The position numbers and the translations under genes are program-made. Shown here piece after piece: positions 48,781 through 58,093 of a DNA stretch of 64,000 bases. The stretch covers positions 1 to 64,000 of the forward strand of contig CP006977.1 in NCBI GenBank assembly GCA_000508305.1, given 5' to 3'. The stretch is from Sulfolobus acidocaldarius SUSAZ. GTDB taxonomy: Archaea; Thermoproteota; Thermoprotei_A; Sulfolobales; Sulfolobaceae. The notes below the pieces were generated by a model. That model had not been told where the DNA came from. It worked only from the letters and a program-made list of their open reading frames with translations, and ran no database searches. Within the stretch, counting starts at the first letter, position 1. Each line of letters opens with the position of its first letter.

Positions 48781-49116
48781 ATGACGAAGAGAATTAATGC
48801 GCCTTGTGAGAAAGCATCCCGTGAAATTATCCCAGTTGTAAAAAATTTAATAGCCAATAACTTATATGCAAAAGGATATACGTACAAGCAAATAGGTGAG
48901 GTTCTAGGAGTTTCAGCTACTGAAATAAACTATTTGATCAGAGGGCTAAGGGGTGCTAATGAGCTAAGAGATGTACTTAAAAAGGATAGGGAGTTTATGG
49001 AGATGGTAGAGTCGTATGTGGTTAGTGGTGAAGAATTTTTATCATTATGCCCATTATGTAGTTATGTAAGGAGAAAAGTATTGAACTGGTCTATTATTTG
49101 CCCGTATGATATATAA
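48781..49116 (+). CDS. Helix-turn-helix regulator with C-terminal cysteines
   Basis: A 111-residue protein. The HTH is GYTYKQIGEVLGVSATEINY, with RGLRGANELRDVL after it; the C-terminal part has CPLC and another Cys (IICPYDI), possibly a metal or redox site. It resembles COG2522-like archaeal regulators. The ATG has a TATA-like TTTATACTT about 25 bases upstream, suggesting leaderless translation. Its TAA stop overlaps the C box of the following sRNA. Confidence 0.8.
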   Translation: MTKRINAPCEKASREIIPVVKNLIANNLYAKGYTYKQIGEVLGVSATEINYLIRGLRGANELRDVLKKDREFMEMVESYVVSGEEFLSLCPLCSYVRRKVLNWSIICPYDI

Positions 49117-49221: not shown

Positions 49222-49355
49222 TGGGCCCACGGGGACTTGAACCCCGGACCACCGGGTCTCTCCTCCAGATCTATATCATCCCCCAACAAGGGGGTCTTAA
49301 GACCCAATGCAGCTCATCTGGAGCCCGGCACTCTACCTGGCTGAGCTATGGGCCC
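49222..49355 (-). tRNA. tRNA-Trp (CCA) with an intron of about 60 nt
   Basis: Acceptor arms GGGCCCA/TGGGCCC with A discriminator; D arm GCTC/GAGT; anticodon stem CCGGG/CCCGG; anticodon CCA. After base 37 an insert of about 60 nt is present before the 3' exon (ACCCGG...). CTCCAGAT and ATCTGGAG around the exon borders pair, as needed for a bulge-helix-bulge splice motif, and GACCCCC-TTGTT-GGGGGAT forms an inner hairpin. The mature tRNA is about 74 nt. Confidence 0.95.
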
Positions 49356-49467: not shown

Positions 49468-50946
49468 TTGAAATGGGATGAACGACGAGTAAAAATAGTT
49501 GATGAGTTAAAGTCAAAGGGAATCAATCCATATCCTCATAAATACAATATAACTTACACTATTATAGACATAAAGAAGATGGAGAGGAGTGACAAACCCA
49601 CAGATGCATTTGCTTTTGATATATCTACTGCTGGTAGGGTTGCTAATATTAGGAGACATGGTAAAATCTCCTTCGTAGATATATTTGATGAGGGCGAAAG
49701 ACTTCAATTACAATTAAGAGTTAATGAATTAGGCGATAGGTATGATAAATTCTTCGAGATAGTAGACAGAGGAGACATATTAGGTGTTAAAGGTGACTTG
49801 CTCTATACTATAAAAGGCGAATTAACACTTAGAATCAAGGACTATGAGCTCTTGTCAAAGTCCCTAATAGAACCTCCGGATTGGTCCAAACTTTCACCCG
49901 AGTTTAGATATGCTCACAGGTACGTAGATTTTCTGTATAATGATTTGGCTAGGAGAAATATGGAAATTAGATATTCCACGATAAAGAGAATAAGGGAATT
50001 CCTTTATTCGAAAGGTTTTATGGAAGTGGAAACACCCATATTACAACCTGTTTACGGAGGGGCGCTAGCTAAACCATTTATGAGCCATGTAAACTACCTG
50101 AATGAAAACTGGTATCTGAGAATATCTTTAGAATTATATCTCAAAAGATACATTGTTGGTGGATTTAATAAAGTATTTGAAATAGGTAAAGTGTTTCGAA
50201 ATGAAGACATAGATGTTACACATAATCCAGAATTTACTCTATTGGAGTTATATTGGGCTTATGCAGATTACAACGATATTATGAGACTTACTGAAGAAAT
50301 GCTCCAAGATGTAGTTAAAAATATCAATAATGACTCTAAAATAAAATACAATATTGGAGGAAAAGAGTACACGATAGAGTTTTCACGATTTAGAAAAATT
50401 ACCATGATTGATTCCTTAACTGAAGTCTTAGGCAAAGATGTTGATAAAATGAGTGACGAAGAGCTAAAGTCTCTTATGGATAAGAATGGACTTAAGCCAA
50501 GAGGAAATATGTATATTAGAGGTTTAATGATAGAGAAATTATTTGATAAATTGGTTACTCCGACACTAATACAACCGACCTTCGTTTTGGATTATCCTGT
50601 GGAAACAACTCCCCTTTGCAAGCCTCATAGAAGCAAGCAAGGATTAGTGGAAAGGTTCGAATTGTATGTGGCTGGAATGGAACTTGCAAATGCTTATACT
50701 GAACTGAACGATCCTATAATACAAGACATGCTATTCAAACAAGAGCAAGAAATGTTTAAGAGAGGAGATGAAGAGGCTCACCCATATGATGTTGACTTCG
50801 TTAGAGCTCTTAGCTACGGTATGCCCCCTACAGGAGGATTAGGAATAGGTATAGACAGGTTGATAATGCTGTTGACAAATAACATGAGTATAAAAGAAAT
50901 AATACCATATCCTATGCTTAGTGCCAAGGTCATCCAAGAGGATTAA
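49468..50946 (+). CDS. lysS: Lysyl-tRNA synthetase, class II
   Basis: A 492-residue enzyme charging tRNA-Lys. An N-terminal OB-fold anticodon-binding domain (about 40-140) is followed by the class II core: motif 1 [17 protein letters not shown], motif 2 [18 protein letters not shown], motif 3 [13 protein letters not shown]. The TTG start gives [15 protein letters not shown], which matches the N-terminus of relatives. The 3' end overlaps the convergent protease by 17 bp. Confidence 0.95.
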
Positions 50947-52006
50947 AGGAGAACAATATTGCTCCAATGAGGATCACAGTAAATATTGATTGTATAAGAT
51001 AAGATTCCCTATCTCCCAATCCTAATTTTCTTGTTATTTCTGTGAAAACTTTTCCTCCATCTGTGATAATTAGTGGAGCACCGTTCAGTAGTGCCAGGCT
51101 GAAATTAACAGTGAACATCCATGTTATGAATTGAAGCAATCCAAGTAGTCCCTGAGGAAAATAATAAGTAATGTAAACACCTATCTGATGTGTTTCAGTT
51201 GTGTTAATCGTAATTGAGTTTATTGAACCATTGGGATATAATAAGGTAAGTATATGAGTCCTTCCTTGATCTAGATAATAAGATAACTGTTGAGGTACTT
51301 TTACCACATTTCCATCTACTTTTAATATTATACTGTTTACGGGTATTGAAGTATTATAAGCTGGAAAATATTGCTTTTCACCTACTATAAGTAAACCTTG
51401 CGAAAGATTTGCAGGTAGAAAGTTGGCTAAGGGAAAGAATATGGCTGCTAAGATCAGGTTTACAGCTATTCCAGCGGATATTATTTTAAGTCTAGATATG
51501 GAGCTGGCAGATTTGAACTCCTCCTCATCAGGCTCCACAAATGCTCCCGGAAAGAAAATGAGAAGTAAAAGACCGCCACTCCTTACCTTAATGCCGTTAG
51601 AGGTAGCTGATACTGCATGAGCTAATTCGTGTAGTGTAACAGAGATTCCAATTGCAAGGAGGATATAGGGTAATTGGTCTAAACCAACTGTTATACCCGG
51701 GATTATGGGCTGTAACGAAACTGTAGACCCTGAACTAGACGGGAATACAGAGTTCAGGAAAACATATAGTATTAGAGTTAACCCTAACACTAATGAAATT
51801 ACTCCCAGTACAACTGCAATTTTATCGAATATCTTATAGGCTCGTTTCCTAGCGAAATTTGGGAACCACTCACTTCTTGTCTGTTTTTTCCACAGTAACA
51901 TGAAAGGGTAAACCACGAATCCCTTTTTCTCCAGTCGTCTTCTAAACGAGTACATTATAAGCCAGAAAAGTAATATACCTAAGGCAAAGTATACTATGTT
52001 ATTCAT
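50930..52006 (-). CDS. Site-2-protease-type membrane zinc metalloprotease (M50)
   Basis: A 358-residue protein with about six membrane helices. The HExxH motif occurs in [20 protein letters not shown] (residues about 125-144) and the third ligand is likely in the [13 protein letters not shown] loop (N-x-x-P-x-x-x-x-D-G). S2P proteases cut within membranes, often to release transcription factors; the target here is unknown. It has a PDZ-like insertion ([15 protein letters not shown]). Confidence 0.9.
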
Positions 52007-52040: not shown

Positions 52041-52706
52041 ATGGAGGTAGCTTATACTAATGAGCACTGGAAAGTACTCATAGAGAAGAGAAAAATTGCT
52101 ATGGAGATTTTGAATTATTTAACCAAACTGGGAATGGAGGGTTTTGTTTACGGTTCTGTTGCAAGAGGTGACGTAAATAAGGAAAGTGATATAGATATTG
52201 TGATATTTAATCCTAATATTCTGGGTTTGGATTTGATAGCTTGTGATCATAAATTTATAGTGCAGGCGACACCTTTTTCCACTCCTAAGGCATATATTTC
52301 ATTGGATCATGAGGAGAAGAAAGTCATTTCATTTCCCTTATCCAAATTGACAAAGAAGGAGACTGAATTCTACTACTTTGGTGGGTTATTGAGCAGAGAT
52401 GAGATAAGAAAGGACATTCGAGCTCCTGGTGTTAATAAAAAGCTATCAATTATAATTCCCACTAAGGAGGGACACATGGAGCTTCCATTGAAAGGTAATG
52501 AAGATTATGCTGTAAAAATGATTAAGAATGTTTCAAAGTATACAATAATGGAAAGGGAAAGATTATTGACTAAAAGAGAGGAGAAGGGTCATACCGGAAT
52601 CTTTATTAAATATGAGCTTACCAGGGAGGAAAGTTTACAAGAGGCTTTTAGAGATTTATATAAGTCAAATAAGTATTTTAGAAGAGTGATAGATGCTAAG
52701 CGGTAG
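52041..52706 (+). CDS. Nucleotidyltransferase-domain protein
   Basis: A 221-residue protein with a minimal nucleotidyltransferase core: FVYGSVARGDVNKESDIDIVIF (GS...D-x-D; split here as GSVARG and SDIDIVI) at about residues 37-58. The rest is an archaeal extension with no known name. It overlaps the DUF1122 gene by 14 bases. It may transfer a nucleotide to RNA, protein or a small molecule; unknown. Confidence 0.8.
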   Translation: MEVAYTNEHWKVLIEKRKIAMEILNYLTKLGMEGFVYGSVARGDVNKESDIDIVIFNPNILGLDLIACDHKFIVQATPFSTPKAYISLDHEEKKVISFPLSKLTKKETEFYYFGGLLSRDEIRKDIRAPGVNKKLSIIIPTKEGHMELPLKGNEDYAVKMIKNVSKYTIMERERLLTKREEKGHTGIFIKYELTREESLQEAFRDLYKSNKYFRRVIDAKR

Positions 52707-53226
52707 GGTAGGGAATAAATTAGTTATAGAGAGCATAGATGTAAAAGACACTCAAATAAAAGAACTGAAGACCTTCATTCTTTATGTAAATGGAAGGAAA
52801 GTTGGCAGGACGTTTTATTTTACTGGAAGGGAGTATTATTTGCCTTGGATAGAAATAGATTATGATCCATGGCTTAGGGAAATTGATGGGGAAGTTGATT
52901 TATTCAATTTTATTTATAATACGCTTCTTCCTGGTGGTAAACTGTTTGTAACCTACATAAGGGACAAGGAAACTGCTGGTATGTTGTATCAAGGTTTTTC
53001 GCCTGCAGATACACCGTTGGGTTTCTCTTTGCTGAAAGCAGGCTTCACGTGGTTTAAACATTGGTATTTTCCTGAAGGAGGTAATGAAGGTGCTCCTAAG
53101 ATTCAAGCCAATAAGCCGTTAAACGATACAGATATGATTAGACAGCTTAGAGAACTATTAGATGAAGTTAAAAGGAATGAAGTAAAAGCTTTCATAGAGA
53201 GTAAGATTGCTAAAAGGAAATCCTGA
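52693..53226 (+). CDS. DUF1122 family protein
   Basis: A 177-residue protein with the DUF1122 features [27 protein letters not shown] and [17 protein letters not shown]. The fold resembles an acetyltransferase-like alpha/beta protein, but no function is known to me. It sits between a nucleotidyltransferase and a radical SAM gene, overlapping both (14 and 20 bases). Confidence 0.8.
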
Positions 53227-54220
53227 GATTGGATTATATAATCTTGATCTGCCTAAAGGTTGCGAGCTATGTAGGATGGGGGGTAAGCTTGTAGTTTTTA
53301 TCACAGGTGAATGTGGGGATAATTGCTACTATTGTCCGGTAAGTGAACAGAGATTTGGGAAGGATAAGGCGTTTGCTAATGAAGCTCCTGCTGAAAACCT
53401 GGTGGATTTTATTTATGAAGCCTACAGAATGAGGGCATTAGGTGCAGGAATTACAGGCGGAGATCCCTTGATAAGAATTGACAAAGTAGTAAATTTGATT
53501 GAGAAATTTAAGGATGAATTTGGTCAGGAATTCCACATTCACCTGTATACTAGTGGTAGATATGTAACTAAGGATGTTTTAAGTGAACTAGAAAGAGCCG
53601 GCTTGGACGAAATTAGATTTCATCCTCTAAAAAGAGAATACCTAAGAGCAATAGAGAAAGCAGTGCAGTTTGATTTCGACGTGGGAATAGAGCTTCCTGC
53701 AATACCAGGACAAGAACAAGAGCTGGAAAAGTTGATATTATGGTCAAAAGCGATAGGAGTTAAGTTCGTTAACATAAATGAGCTAGAACTAACAGAAAGG
53801 AATTATGCACCTTTAAATGCTAGAGGTTTTAAAAGCGCCCATGGACTTGCAGGAGTAAATGGAAGTTTTGAAACAGCTCATGCTACTTTGAGGAAATTGC
53901 ATGACGAGAAAATTGCACTCCACTACTGTAGTTCAGTTTACAAAGATTTAGTGGAAACCAGAACTAGGTTCCTGAGAATTATAAAGTACTCATCTAAAGC
54001 CTATGAGGAGGGAACAGGAGAGGGAACAGTTCTAAGAGCTATAGTGAAGTCTTCTCAAGATCTAAGTGATTATGGTGAAGAGATAGAAAAAGGAGTCTGG
54101 AGTATTTCACCATCTCTGGTTACTCACTTGGGAGTAAATGAGTATGTATTAGTGGAGGAGTATCCTGATTGGAGGAAACTTAAGATAGGAGAGAAGTTAG
54201 TTTATTCTAAACCTCAGTAG
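53207..54220 (+). CDS. Radical SAM protein (COG2108-like)
   Basis: A 337-residue radical SAM enzyme. The cluster motif CGDNCYYC lies in [17 protein letters not shown] (residues about 31-47); a second Cys pair CELC precedes it ([10 protein letters not shown]). [10 protein letters not shown] is the GGE-like SAM motif. It belongs to a group annotated as related to pyruvate-formate-lyase activating enzyme with no known substrate. TTG start inside the DUF1122 gene. The 3' end overlaps pelota by 24 bp. Confidence 0.88.
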
Positions 54221-55225
54221 AGAGACTATTCCTGTCAAATTTTTAACTTGATAGTATATTGGAGAATCCTTTGGTACTATCATAATCTTTCCCTTCTTTT
54301 TCTCAATATCCCTCAAGAGCTCATCAATAATTTCCCTACCGGTATCAGTTAGATAGTCTTCAGTAATTAGTAATTTATCCACTGCACCTAGTTCATTAGC
54401 CTTCTTTATATCTTCTATGCCATACATAACTAATCCAGTATTTTTAGCTAAATTTTCCATTATACTTTCAAGTATTTTTAGTTGTTGTGCTATTTCAAAT
54501 TCCCTGTATACCTGATCTATAATATCCCTCCTGAGTAATTCATTTAATCCCGCTCTGCTAGCTGACGATACACTATCTACATATACAATCAACTTATTAT
54601 CAATCTGTTTTATTTTCTGGTTTACCATGTCTTTAAAAGGACCTGGTCCTGCAATTATAATCACGTTTACGCCTGTAAGTTTTACAAATGAGATTATCTC
54701 ATTTGCCATTTCTTCAATATTTTCATTTACTACATCGTTATCCTTCCCCGGAGTCTGGAGACTTTTTTCTGCGAGGACTTTCACACCTTGCTTCATCAAT
54801 AATGCTATGATATATTCATCTACATCCACTAATGCAATTAGTAATTTACCTTTTTTCTCCTCTTGTTCTCTTATTTTCTCTAATTCATAATTATTCCATT
54901 GTTCTTTTATTATAATTACTTCATCACCAATATCTAAATTTACAGTATGATGGGCTCCTTTTATTCCGAACCTTTCTGGTGCGTCAAGTATTAGTCCGTG
55001 TATTCTAAGCCTAGTGGTAAAATTTTGAAATTCTGTATATTCCACCTGAAGCTCTATAGTCATTGGAATTCTCCTACTGTCTTTTCCCATACTGATATCT
55101 CTGGTGGTCTTGGCAACTATTCTATCTCCCTTTTTTATTATAATGTGTAGTAGCCATAAATCATCTTCATTTTCTACGTGAAGTTTGAGCGATCCTCGTT
55201 TGTCATTAAATTCTAAAATCTTCAT
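54197..55225 (-). CDS. pelA: Pelota (Dom34) ribosome rescue factor
   Basis: It enters the A site of stalled ribosomes with aEF1A and ABCE1 to release them. The first domain [18 protein letters not shown], then [19 protein letters not shown], the central [14 protein letters not shown] and [13 protein letters not shown] are family signatures. 342 aa, usual archaeal length. Confidence 0.95.
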
Positions 55226-55247: not shown

Positions 55248-55712
55248 TTGATAATTATATCTGACGCTAGGGAGGAGGATTTACCTGAAATTTATGACGT
55301 AGAATTAGAGAGTTTCGATAATCCTTATCCGTTTTCTTTACTCAGAGCCTATTATTATATATCGGGTGATCTCTTTATCGTTGCTAAAAGCGGTAATAAG
55401 GTTATAGGGTATATTCTAGGCATAATACAATTTGGCTATAGGGGACATATAGTATCTATCGCGGTTAAAAAAGATAAGAGAGGAAGTGGCATTGGCACTA
55501 AACTTATTTCTGAACTAGAAAATAGGTTTAAATTAGCTTATCATTGTATTCATTCGTACCTAGAAGTTTATTATAAAAATATGTCTGCTATCAATTTCTA
55601 CATAAAGAACGGTTATAAAGCAATAAGGATTCAGAAGGACTATTATGGAAGAGAAAAGCATGCCATAATTATGATTAAGAGCTTATACGATCATCAAAAT
55701 GGCTTTGAGTAA
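55248..55712 (+). CDS. GNAT-family N-acetyltransferase, RimI/Naa-like
   Basis: A 154-residue acetyltransferase. ESFDNPYPFSLL at the start is the RimI/Ard1 substrate-side motif; VSIAVKKDKRGSGIGTKLI holds the acetyl-CoA pyrophosphate loop; SAINFYIKNGYKA ends the fold. It could acetylate protein N-termini. TTG start; 22 bp from the divergent pelota start. Confidence 0.85.
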   Translation: MIIISDAREEDLPEIYDVELESFDNPYPFSLLRAYYYISGDLFIVAKSGNKVIGYILGIIQFGYRGHIVSIAVKKDKRGSGIGTKLISELENRFKLAYHCIHSYLEVYYKNMSAINFYIKNGYKAIRIQKDYYGREKHAIIMIKSLYDHQNGFE

Positions 55713-55744: not shown

Positions 55745-58093
55745 GTGTTAGAGGATTTCTTTGTATTAGACTTTTCATATGATGTTGTTGATAACATACC
55801 CGTTATATTTATTTGGTCGATAGATAGACAAGGTAACAGAGTTACACTAGTAGAGAAGAACTTTAGACCATATTTCTATGCCGTGGTAGATGATAGAGAA
55901 GACGTATCTAAGGTGATCTCTGAGATAAAGAAACTAAGTAAGCCCTCCTCTCCTATAACGAATATAGAAATTGAGACTGATCGAAAGTACTTTGGTAATC
56001 CATTAAAATCATTAAAGATAGAGACTGTAGTTCCTGCATATGTGAGGATATATAGAGATGAGGTATCTAAAATTAAAGGTGTAAAGAATGTACTAGAGGC
56101 TGATATAAGATTTTACATGAGGTATTCAATAGACAAGGGAATAAGACCATTTTACTGGATTAAGGCTGACGTGGAGGAAATTCAATCGAAGGAGGTTTTC
56201 AAGGTAAAATCGGAGAAACTGTATTTGATTAAAGACATATTAGAAATATATGAGGCGGAGGAACCTAGGCTTAAAACTATGGCGTTCAGCATAGAGGTTT
56301 ATAATAAGTATGGTTTTCCCAACACAAGAAGAGATCCTATTATTATAATAGGTGTATATACTGAAAATGGGTATAAACAATTCATATCCTCGGATTATGA
56401 CGATATAAATGTAATAAGAGAATTCATAAAGTTTGTAAATGATTTTGAGCCGGATATAATTTTTGGTTATAATTCTAATTCGTTTGACTGGAGATATCTT
56501 GTAGAAAGAGCAGAATTAAGAGGGATTAAAGTTGCAATAGGTAGGAAACTTAATAGTGAGCCGTCACAAGGAGTCTATGGTCACTATTCGGTAACAGGTA
56601 GACTAAACGTAGATTTAGCGGGTGTTTTTTGCTCATCTAGAAGTAAGAGTCTAATAGATCTCGCGGATAATCTGGGTGTTATGCCAAAGAATAAGAGAGA
56701 AATATTAGAATGGTATGAAGTACCTAAGTACTGGGATGATAAGAGTAAGAGGGAAATTCTCCTGAAATATAACTTATCTAATATAAAATCAATTTATGAT
56801 ATAGGTCAGTCTAATCTTCACTACCTCATCCAACTTGTTAAAGTCACTGGCTTGCCTTTAGATCAACTTTCCATGGCTAGTTCAGGACACAGAATTGAAT
56901 GGCTTCTAGTTAGAGAGTCCAAGAAATATCATGAATTTATACCAAATAGAGAAGATAGGAGAACTGAAGCCTCTGATGAAGGTATTATAATCCCTCCAGT
57001 ATCTGGTCTTCATAATAACGTCTACGTACTAGATTTCTCAACCATATATCCTTCCATCATTTTTAAATATAATATAAGCCCCGATACCCTAGTCAGAGGA
57101 GATTGTAGTGATTGCTGGACCTCTTTGAATGGTAATTACAAGTTCAGAAAGGATATTAGAGGTCTTTATCAAAATGTTCTCTTAAATCTTTTGACAGAGA
57201 TTGAAAGAAGAGAAGAGATCATAAAGACTTTAGACGCTGAGAAGAGGAGGAGGTTTGAAGAAGAATTAAGAGCTTTAAGGTCTATATTAAATTCATTCTA
57301 TGACTATATAAGGTGGACCAATGCTAGATGGTATGTTAGAGAATGTGTCGAAGGATTATTTGAATGGGGAAGGGAACTTATCCTACAAATTCTAAAAATC
57401 GTTAAGGAGAGTGGTTTTCAAGTAATTTATGCAGACACTGACTTAATGTTTTTTAAAGGCGAAAATGATCCTAAGAAGTTGGAAGAAGACATAGCCAATA
57501 AGTTAAGCTTTAATCTCAAATTTAATAAATTCTATACTAAACTTATTCTATTAGAGGGCAAGAAACAGTACGCAGCTCTTACTAAAGGTAATAAGGTGGA
57601 TATGGTTGGTATTGAGGATTATAGGAATAATTGGTGTGATCTTGCTAAAGAAGTTCTACAAAACGTAGTAGACCAGGTGCTGAGAAACGACAAGATCAAC
57701 GAAGCTGTAAGATATGTCAAGAGTGTCATATATTCGTTGAGAAGGGGAGAGTTTAAGATAGAAGATCTTGTTACATGGAATATTATAGATAAGGACATAG
57801 AAGAGTACAAGTTTGACTTGCCTCATATTGTTGCTGCTAGAAAAGCTATGAAATCAGGACATTTAGTAACTAGAGGTTCTAAGATAGGTTATGTGATAGT
57901 CAAGGGTTCAGGTAGGCTTAGTAATAGGGCTGAGCCATATTTTATGGTTAAGGAAAAATCGAAAGTTGATATTGAATATTATATTGATAAGCAGATAATA
58001 CCCAGTGCATTAAAAGTTCTGGGGTTATTTGGGGTAAAAGAAAATACCTTTAAATTTGGGGGAACTGATGTTTTGAATTTTTTTAAGAAATAA
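55745..58093 (+). CDS. dpo3: Family B DNA polymerase, B3 type
   Basis: A 782-residue polymerase, one of three family B enzymes of Sulfolobus; size and position suggest Dpo3/PolB3. Motif A is YVLDFSTIYPSIIF (near residue 430), motif B LNSFYDYIRW (the usual K-x-x-x-N-S-x-Y-G is altered) and motif C YADTDLMFF (near 563), where the usual YGDTDS becomes ADTDL. Exo I reads AFSIEVYN, so the first Asp of D-x-E is Ser, while NSNSFDW (Exo II) is kept. It may be a slow accessory polymerase with weak or no proofreading. GTG start. Confidence 0.9.
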   Translation: MLEDFFVLDFSYDVVDNIPVIFIWSIDRQGNRVTLVEKNFRPYFYAVVDDREDVSKVISEIKKLSKPSSPITNIEIETDRKYFGNPLKSLKIETVVPAYVRIYRDEVSKIKGVKNVLEADIRFYMRYSIDKGIRPFYWIKADVEEIQSKEVFKVKSEKLYLIKDILEIYEAEEPRLKTMAFSIEVYNKYGFPNTRRDPIIIIGVYTENGYKQFISSDYDDINVIREFIKFVNDFEPDIIFGYNSNSFDWRYLVERAELRGIKVAIGRKLNSEPSQGVYGHYSVTGRLNVDLAGVFCSSRSKSLIDLADNLGVMPKNKREILEWYEVPKYWDDKSKREILLKYNLSNIKSIYDIGQSNLHYLIQLVKVTGLPLDQLSMASSGHRIEWLLVRESKKYHEFIPNREDRRTEASDEGIIIPPVSGLHNNVYVLDFSTIYPSIIFKYNISPDTLVRGDCSDCWTSLNGNYKFRKDIRGLYQNVLLNLLTEIERREEIIKTLDAEKRRRFEEELRALRSILNSFYDYIRWTNARWYVRECVEGLFEWGRELILQILKIVKESGFQVIYADTDLMFFKGENDPKKLEEDIANKLSFNLKFNKFYTKLILLEGKKQYAALTKGNKVDMVGIEDYRNNWCDLAKEVLQNVVDQVLRNDKINEAVRYVKSVIYSLRRGEFKIEDLVTWNIIDKDIEEYKFDLPHIVAARKAMKSGHLVTRGSKIGYVIVKGSGRLSNRAEPYFMVKEKSKVDIEYYIDKQIIPSALKVLGLFGVKENTFKFGGTDVLNFFKK

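Follow-up and report, generated by a model that had tools for sequence, protein, structure and literature searches.

What do three overlapping genes accomplish together at positions 52041-54220 of this archaeal genome, and do they form one pathway? The stretch that we analysed, here called the window, comprises bases 1-64000 of a single-contig genome of 2.06 Mb. Within it, a nucleotidyltransferase (NT; 52041..52706, + strand, 221 aa) has a stand-alone nucleotidyltransferase fold (Pfam NTP_transf_2, AlphaFold2), the motif GSVARGD...SDIDI and a C-terminal part that is basic (RERLLTKREEKGHTG); a DUF1122 protein (52693..53226, +, 177 aa) represents a short Sulfolobaceae form of Pfam family PF06557; and a radical SAM protein (RS; 53207..54220, +, 337 aa; Pfam Radical_SAM, AlphaFold2) starts at TTG and contains six conserved cysteines. 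As the sequence-only reading had described, the genes overlap in series, by 14 bases between NT and DUF1122 (52693-52706) and by 20 bases between DUF1122 and RS (53207-53226), and RS carries the two cysteine motifs CELC and CxxxCxxC. Opposite-strand genes flank the unit on each side: a divergent M50 membrane peptidase upstream of NT (50930..52006, −) and, downstream, a convergent Pelota gene (54197..55225, −; TIGR00111, 197 bits, over the cut-off) that runs 24 bases into the end of RS. Further along lie a RimI-type N-acetyltransferase (55248..55712, +; TIGR01575, 86.3 bits against a cut-off of 86.4) and, as a context gene, a family B DNA polymerase (55745..58093, +).

Two features elsewhere in the window were recorded in their own right. 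A tRNA match of 134 bases (49222-49355, −; 54 bits), probably intron-containing, has a short ORF on one side and the gene of a class II aminoacyl-tRNA ligase on the other, and an ORF of 111 aa with HTH-like sequence (48781-49116, +), without a match in a Pfam search, stands beside the gene for a 7-kDa DNA-binding protein.

The three-gene arrangement is a stable property of the Sulfolobaceae. Gene order from M50 through NT-DUF1122-RS to Pelota was constant across the loci that we fetched from this family, except in one genus without NT. Because the three proteins retain 54-72% identity in six more distant Sulfolobaceae loci, and because the distance between NT and RS stays within 504-531 bases in all 13 of the family's genomes that have both, NT, DUF1122 and RS are real genes whose arrangement goes beyond chance. 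Operon starts are likewise conserved, the TTG of RS aligning with ATG or TTG starts of its relatives. In the exceptional genus, two genomes (L050 and L051) keep M50, DUF1122, RS and Pelota in place and lack NT, and a genome-wide search (E <= 1e-8) found no NT elsewhere in either.

We next consider how the three genes are distributed beyond the family. Across 300 genomes of the phylum, searched at E <= 1e-20 for RS and E <= 1e-8 for NT, DUF1122 was present in 57, RS in 100 and NT in 198, with all three in 26. NT and RS occurred together in 75 genomes, RS without NT in 25, NT without RS in 123 and neither in 77; RS and DUF1122 were found together in 42, and DUF1122 without RS in 15. With shared ancestry ignored, Fisher tests on these genomes gave an uncorrected P = 0.02 for RS with NT, a weak association, and P = 4e-12 for RS with DUF1122. 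The 80 RS loci kept from outside the phylum are all archaeal, judging by their record titles, and come from Asgard archaea, Thermoplasmata, Methanomassiliicoccales, Thermococci, Altiarchaeota, Woesearchaeota and others. RS was present in 61 of 61 sampled genomes of the Thermococci phylum and in 50 of 60 of the Thermoplasmata phylum, nearly always as a single copy.

The other two genes follow different distributions. NT was likewise found in 61/61 Thermococci-phylum genomes and in 4 of 25 mixed archaeal genomes reached via RS loci, and it was not found in the Thermoplasmata genomes checked, although RS is common there; DUF1122, searched in 15 of the archaeal genomes reached via RS loci, appeared in none. 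Conversely, TACK lineages that lack RS commonly have NT, and whole TACK families have kept NT but not RS; in several loci of such RS-less genomes NT adjoins Pelota. Heimdallarchaeota show the opposite, with RS between M50 and Pelota and no NT in the locus. Such natural losses, together with the NT-less Sulfolobaceae genus, argue against one obligate pathway, and since each gene also occurs without the others, the three probably do not form one. Long open frames in nine genomes, considered as possible fusions of NT or RS, appear to reflect an unread upstream frame and not fused domains.

Where NT and RS coexist, they are often close neighbours. Outside Sulfolobaceae, coordinates of both genes were available for 47 genomes: the two lie at most 1.2 kb apart in 26 of them, the distance being no more than 200 bases in 16 of these, and in another 16 of the 47 they are far apart or on different contigs. 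Many loci have them co-oriented and abutting or overlapping, with a minority convergent or separated. Co-oriented, adjacent pairs occur in Thorarchaeota and Baldrarchaeota, and adjacent pairs in many other TACK families and Asgard archaea, between M50/NcsA-like genes and Pelota-RimI-PolB-DnaG genes. Among the recurring neighbours are a PP-loop tRNA thiolase resembling NcsA (NcsA and TtuA match it best, at scores below their cut-offs), M50, which is retained in many TACK and Asgard loci, Pelota, RimI, PolB and DnaG, as well as a class I tRNA synthetase. DUF1122 was near NT or RS in none of 22 non-Sulfolobaceae loci, inspected with 1.5 kb flanks on each side, so that the three-gene operon is a feature of Sulfolobaceae that extends an older pair. 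It is very probable that NT and RS form an ancestral unit that DUF1122 joined only in Sulfolobaceae, the genes being independent of one another.

Other clades place the genes in further contexts. The t6A enzyme TsaC is encoded two genes away from NT in one Thermococcus genome, and another Thermococci genome has NT near a TsaC-like gene. By coordinate comparison, RS stands 465-494 bases after RqcH, two genes on, in 11 of 61 Thermococci-phylum genomes, and directly after a DUF512 radical SAM gene in 7 of 61 (L244 5007-7221; L246; L228; L229). Cobalamin binding has been demonstrated for the DUF512 family (PMC11659888). In Thermoplasmata the neighbours of RS, as judged from their sequences, are either RadB and ribosomal genes or genes of RNA polymerase; an initial reading that placed RS beside eIF5A was dropped, the neighbours being read as L7Ae, S28e and L24e. 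The RqcH, DUF512 and TsaC contexts are probably clade-level and not independent events, and given also the mixed functions of old archaeal clusters, we treat these links as leads only. More generally, the conserved neighbourhood is an old, mixed 'informational' cluster that includes DNA replication genes, and so context proves little about the substrate.

Additional genes were observed in the same neighbourhoods. Two Thermococci genomes (L224 4513-6746; L225) have, near NT and TsaC, a gene for a small unnamed protein (166 and 138 aa), and in some Thermococci RqcH and RS are lined up with, between them, a gene for a 146-aa protein that matches no family (L245 4152-7663; L227). In some loci NT-RS is followed by a radical SAM gene of the AmmeMemoRadiSam type (L118 8673-9803, directly after RS; L172). 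In some deep TACK lineages, RimI, NT or RS repeatedly has beside it another radical SAM gene, which is MoaA-like and reaches no family cut-off (L113, L115, L116, L124, L126).

RS is a member of the radical SAM superfamily, scoring 51.6 bits against Pfam Radical_SAM (PF04055; cut-off 29.5). Its first motif reads C19-E-L-C22 (53261..53272, +) and its second C36-GDN-C40-YY-C43 (53312..53335, +). We followed the cysteines through an alignment of 57 sequences chosen from archaeal loci and a second alignment of 34: C36, C40, C43 and a downstream C241 (53927..53929, +) are present in 57/57 and 34/34 sequences, and C19 and C22 in 56/57, with one gap, and 34/34. The RS of the window contains no cysteine beyond these six. 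From this conservation we infer that C36-x3-C40-x2-C43 holds the SAM-binding [4Fe-4S] cluster that would cleave SAM, and C19, C22 and C241 quite probably supply the three ligands of an auxiliary [4Fe-4S] cluster. The remaining invariant positions are mostly polar ones on strands of the predicted barrel; the invariant polar set (H110, H112, Y114, E135, R137, H139, E162, N189, N191, E192, E194, H239, K246 and R254) suggests a polar or phosphate-bearing substrate.

RS has a confident AlphaFold2 model (pLDDT 95.9), for which Foldseek gave resemblance at the level of the radical SAM barrel only (TM about 0.3-0.6), the nearest solved structures including TsrM, viperin, lipoyl synthase, RlmN, MoaA and biotin synthase. 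Neither PDB profile nor Foldseek searches returned a close solved relative, and RS reached the cut-off of no characterised NCBIfam family: MoaA models gave 30.8-31.8 bits (cut-offs 231-325) and pyruvate formate-lyase activase 22.3 bits (cut-off 231.8). The PADLOC pVip model gave 16.6 bits over residues 30-129 only, short of a family-level match to viperin, and a role in defence was set aside, PADLOC having returned weak matches only, to the NTase core and to viperin. RS is acidic (pI 5.75); we found no RNA-binding domain in it, and Pfam and NCBIfam searches found no SPASM or peptide-recognition domain.

MoaA (GTP 3',8-cyclase), the best PDB sequence-profile match of RS (E 0.001), shares with it the radical SAM barrel, CxxxCxxC and two clusters, the second of which is predicted in RS. 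The auxiliary cysteines of MoaA are all C-terminal in its structures, whereas RS has CxxC before the core and one cysteine after it. Viperin, a CTP radical SAM enzyme that ranks high in the Foldseek results (E about 1e-6, TM 0.43-0.59, identity about 14%), carries one cluster, unlike RS with its extra C19, C22 and C241. Lipoyl synthase (LipA), a further fold neighbour, draws its auxiliary-cluster ligands from an N-terminal extension and the C-terminal end, and the proposed auxiliary ligands of RS would similarly stand on both sides of the core. However, RS lacks the N-terminal CX4CX5C and the Ser ligand of LipA and has CxxC plus a single Cys instead, C19-x2-C22 alone preceding the core. Pyruvate formate-lyase activase and the AmmeMemoRadiSam radical SAM protein are distant superfamily relatives, and no glycyl-radical partner was seen near RS.

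NT belongs to the pol-beta-like nucleotidyltransferase superfamily (Pfam NTP_transf_2, PF01909; 29.9 bits, cut-off 21). Its invariant residues are G38, S39, R42, G43, D44, S49, D50, D52, K83, R127, K133, R172 and R179, among which G38, S39, D50 and D52 make up the GS...DxD motif. The protein is basic (pI 9.1), its C-terminal 72 residues more so (pI 9.7). A Foldseek search with the confident AlphaFold2 model (pLDDT 94.5) returned no solved structure at E <= 0.001 (best E 6e-3, TM about 0.3) and no structural match to the C-terminal part. The leading weak matches are RNA-tailing enzymes (CutA, GLD-2, Cid1 and CCA-adding enzymes, including the archaeal one), which share with NT the NTase core and GS...DxD; the match, at TM about 0.3, is confined to that core, with no shared fold beyond it. 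The NCBIfam models for the MntA antitoxin (20.4 bits, cut-off 60) and HalB (17.8 bits, cut-off 190) both stayed below threshold. Action on RNA is a tentative assignment for NT that we hold at slightly less than even odds. A release-factor paper that mentions an NTase was discarded as a source on NT, the NTase there being a different protein that belongs to bacterial RFH systems.

The DUF1122 protein is a clear family member (PF06557; 211 bits, cut-off 25) and has a solved relative, Aquifex aq_1966 (PDB 2arh; E 2.5e-28), deposited as a hypothetical protein. In contrast to other DUF1122 proteins, the Sulfolobaceae form has no C-terminal helical tail, and it reads PEGGNEG where aq_1966 has PEGFMEG. 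In SCOP, aq_1966 probably stands near GNAT; hhalign detected no similarity between DUF1122 and the RimI-type (GNAT) proteins. Elsewhere DUF1122 has no constant partner, although five loci have it beside a likely oxoacid:ferredoxin oxidoreductase, identified by its sequence only. Literature searches returned no paper using DUF1122, PF06557 or COG2413, a single match for COG2108 (the group named in the sequence-only reading), in a gut-flora study, and nothing on the essentiality of these genes in Sulfolobus.

On balance, we favour a translation-linked modification of RNA or of a nucleotide, in which NT and RS would be neighbours without being obligate partners, and give this reading a probability of roughly 0.5. 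An ancestral archaeal pair of NT and RS would have received DUF1122 by insertion in the Sulfolobaceae lineage. The C36/C40/C43 cluster of RS would cleave SAM, C19/C22/C241 would carry the auxiliary [4Fe-4S] cluster, and the enzyme would modify tRNA, rRNA or a nucleotide used in translation, while NT would transfer a nucleotide, most likely to RNA. Both may serve one functional area, such as tRNA modification or ribosome rescue, without being obligate steps of one pathway, DUF1122 being accessory. That the substrate of RS is RNA or a nucleotide has, in our estimate, an even chance. Among the observations in favour of the reading as a whole we count the fold neighbours of RS, which include viperin (CTP), MoaA (GTP), RlmN and lipoyl synthase. 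A stronger version, which would make NT and RS the centre of a hitherto undescribed archaeal system for nucleotide or RNA modification coupled to ribosome rescue, seems improbable: there RS, with an unusual auxiliary cluster formed by its N-terminal CxxC and C-terminal Cys, would make a modified nucleotide or RNA residue, NT would attach or repair the nucleotide, and Pelota/RqcH would be the functional setting.

The most demanding alternative is one obligate three-enzyme system, in which NT activates a substrate, RS modifies it and DUF1122 completes or escorts the product. The overlapping, co-oriented genes conserved in Sulfolobaceae at near-constant spacing and the above-chance co-occurrence of DUF1122 with RS speak for it, but DUF1122 stands apart in the 22 loci outside the family, NT and RS co-occur only weakly, NT has been cleanly lost from one Sulfolobaceae genus, and RS is unaccompanied by NT in most of the other archaea examined and by DUF1122 in 15/15. 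We consider such a system very unlikely and, in its obligate form, mostly refuted already. The suggestion in the sequence-only reading of one modification pathway survives in part: the conserved operon and the second conserved Cys set of RS are supported, while a single system of all three genes is not. The outcome that this reading had itself named as refuting, independent occurrence of the genes in most genomes, was largely obtained, as in the NT-only and RS-only genomes of the phylum survey. Among the targets proposed there (RNA, protein or a cofactor), the NcsA-like tRNA thiolase, TsaC, Pelota and RqcH contexts fit RNA modification or translation.

A different division of labour would have RS make a small cofactor or metabolite by MoaA- or lipoyl-synthase-like chemistry, with NT an unrelated housekeeping neighbour. 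The dense invariant polar residues would suit a small, enclosed substrate, MoaA, viperin, lipoyl synthase and biotin synthase are fold neighbours, and RS is broadly kept in archaea and almost always single-copy; yet no cofactor-pathway gene recurs beside it in clustered loci, and its absence from whole TACK families keeping NT means that the product would be dispensable there, leaving this a somewhat unlikely account. It is less likely still that RS modifies a translation protein (a ribosomal protein, Pelota, RqcH or an elongation factor): RS adjoins Pelota in TACK and Asgard loci and lies near RqcH in one Thermococci clade, but the Pelota link may be inherited synteny and the searches found no SPASM or peptide-recognition domain. 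Inheritance may explain the whole grouping, as unrelated housekeeping genes on a shared transcript, an explanation compatible with the various chemistries for RS. Each gene persists alone and the flanking genes are functionally mixed, as such a neighbourhood would predict; against it, several distant lineages have NT and RS as a same-strand two-gene unit, in many cases adjacent or overlapping, with opposite-strand genes on either side, and we put this explanation on a par with the cofactor account.

What holds most interest is RS, a radical SAM enzyme retained across many archaea, whose cysteine layout is unusual and which matches no characterised family; beside it stands its old partner gene, NT. 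As RS is so widely kept (in Thermococci, Thermoplasmata and loci of Asgard, DPANN and TACK archaea) and retains a full second set of cysteines, its product should be something that many archaea need. This genome has one copy of the gene and genetic tools exist for the family, and its role is thus directly testable.
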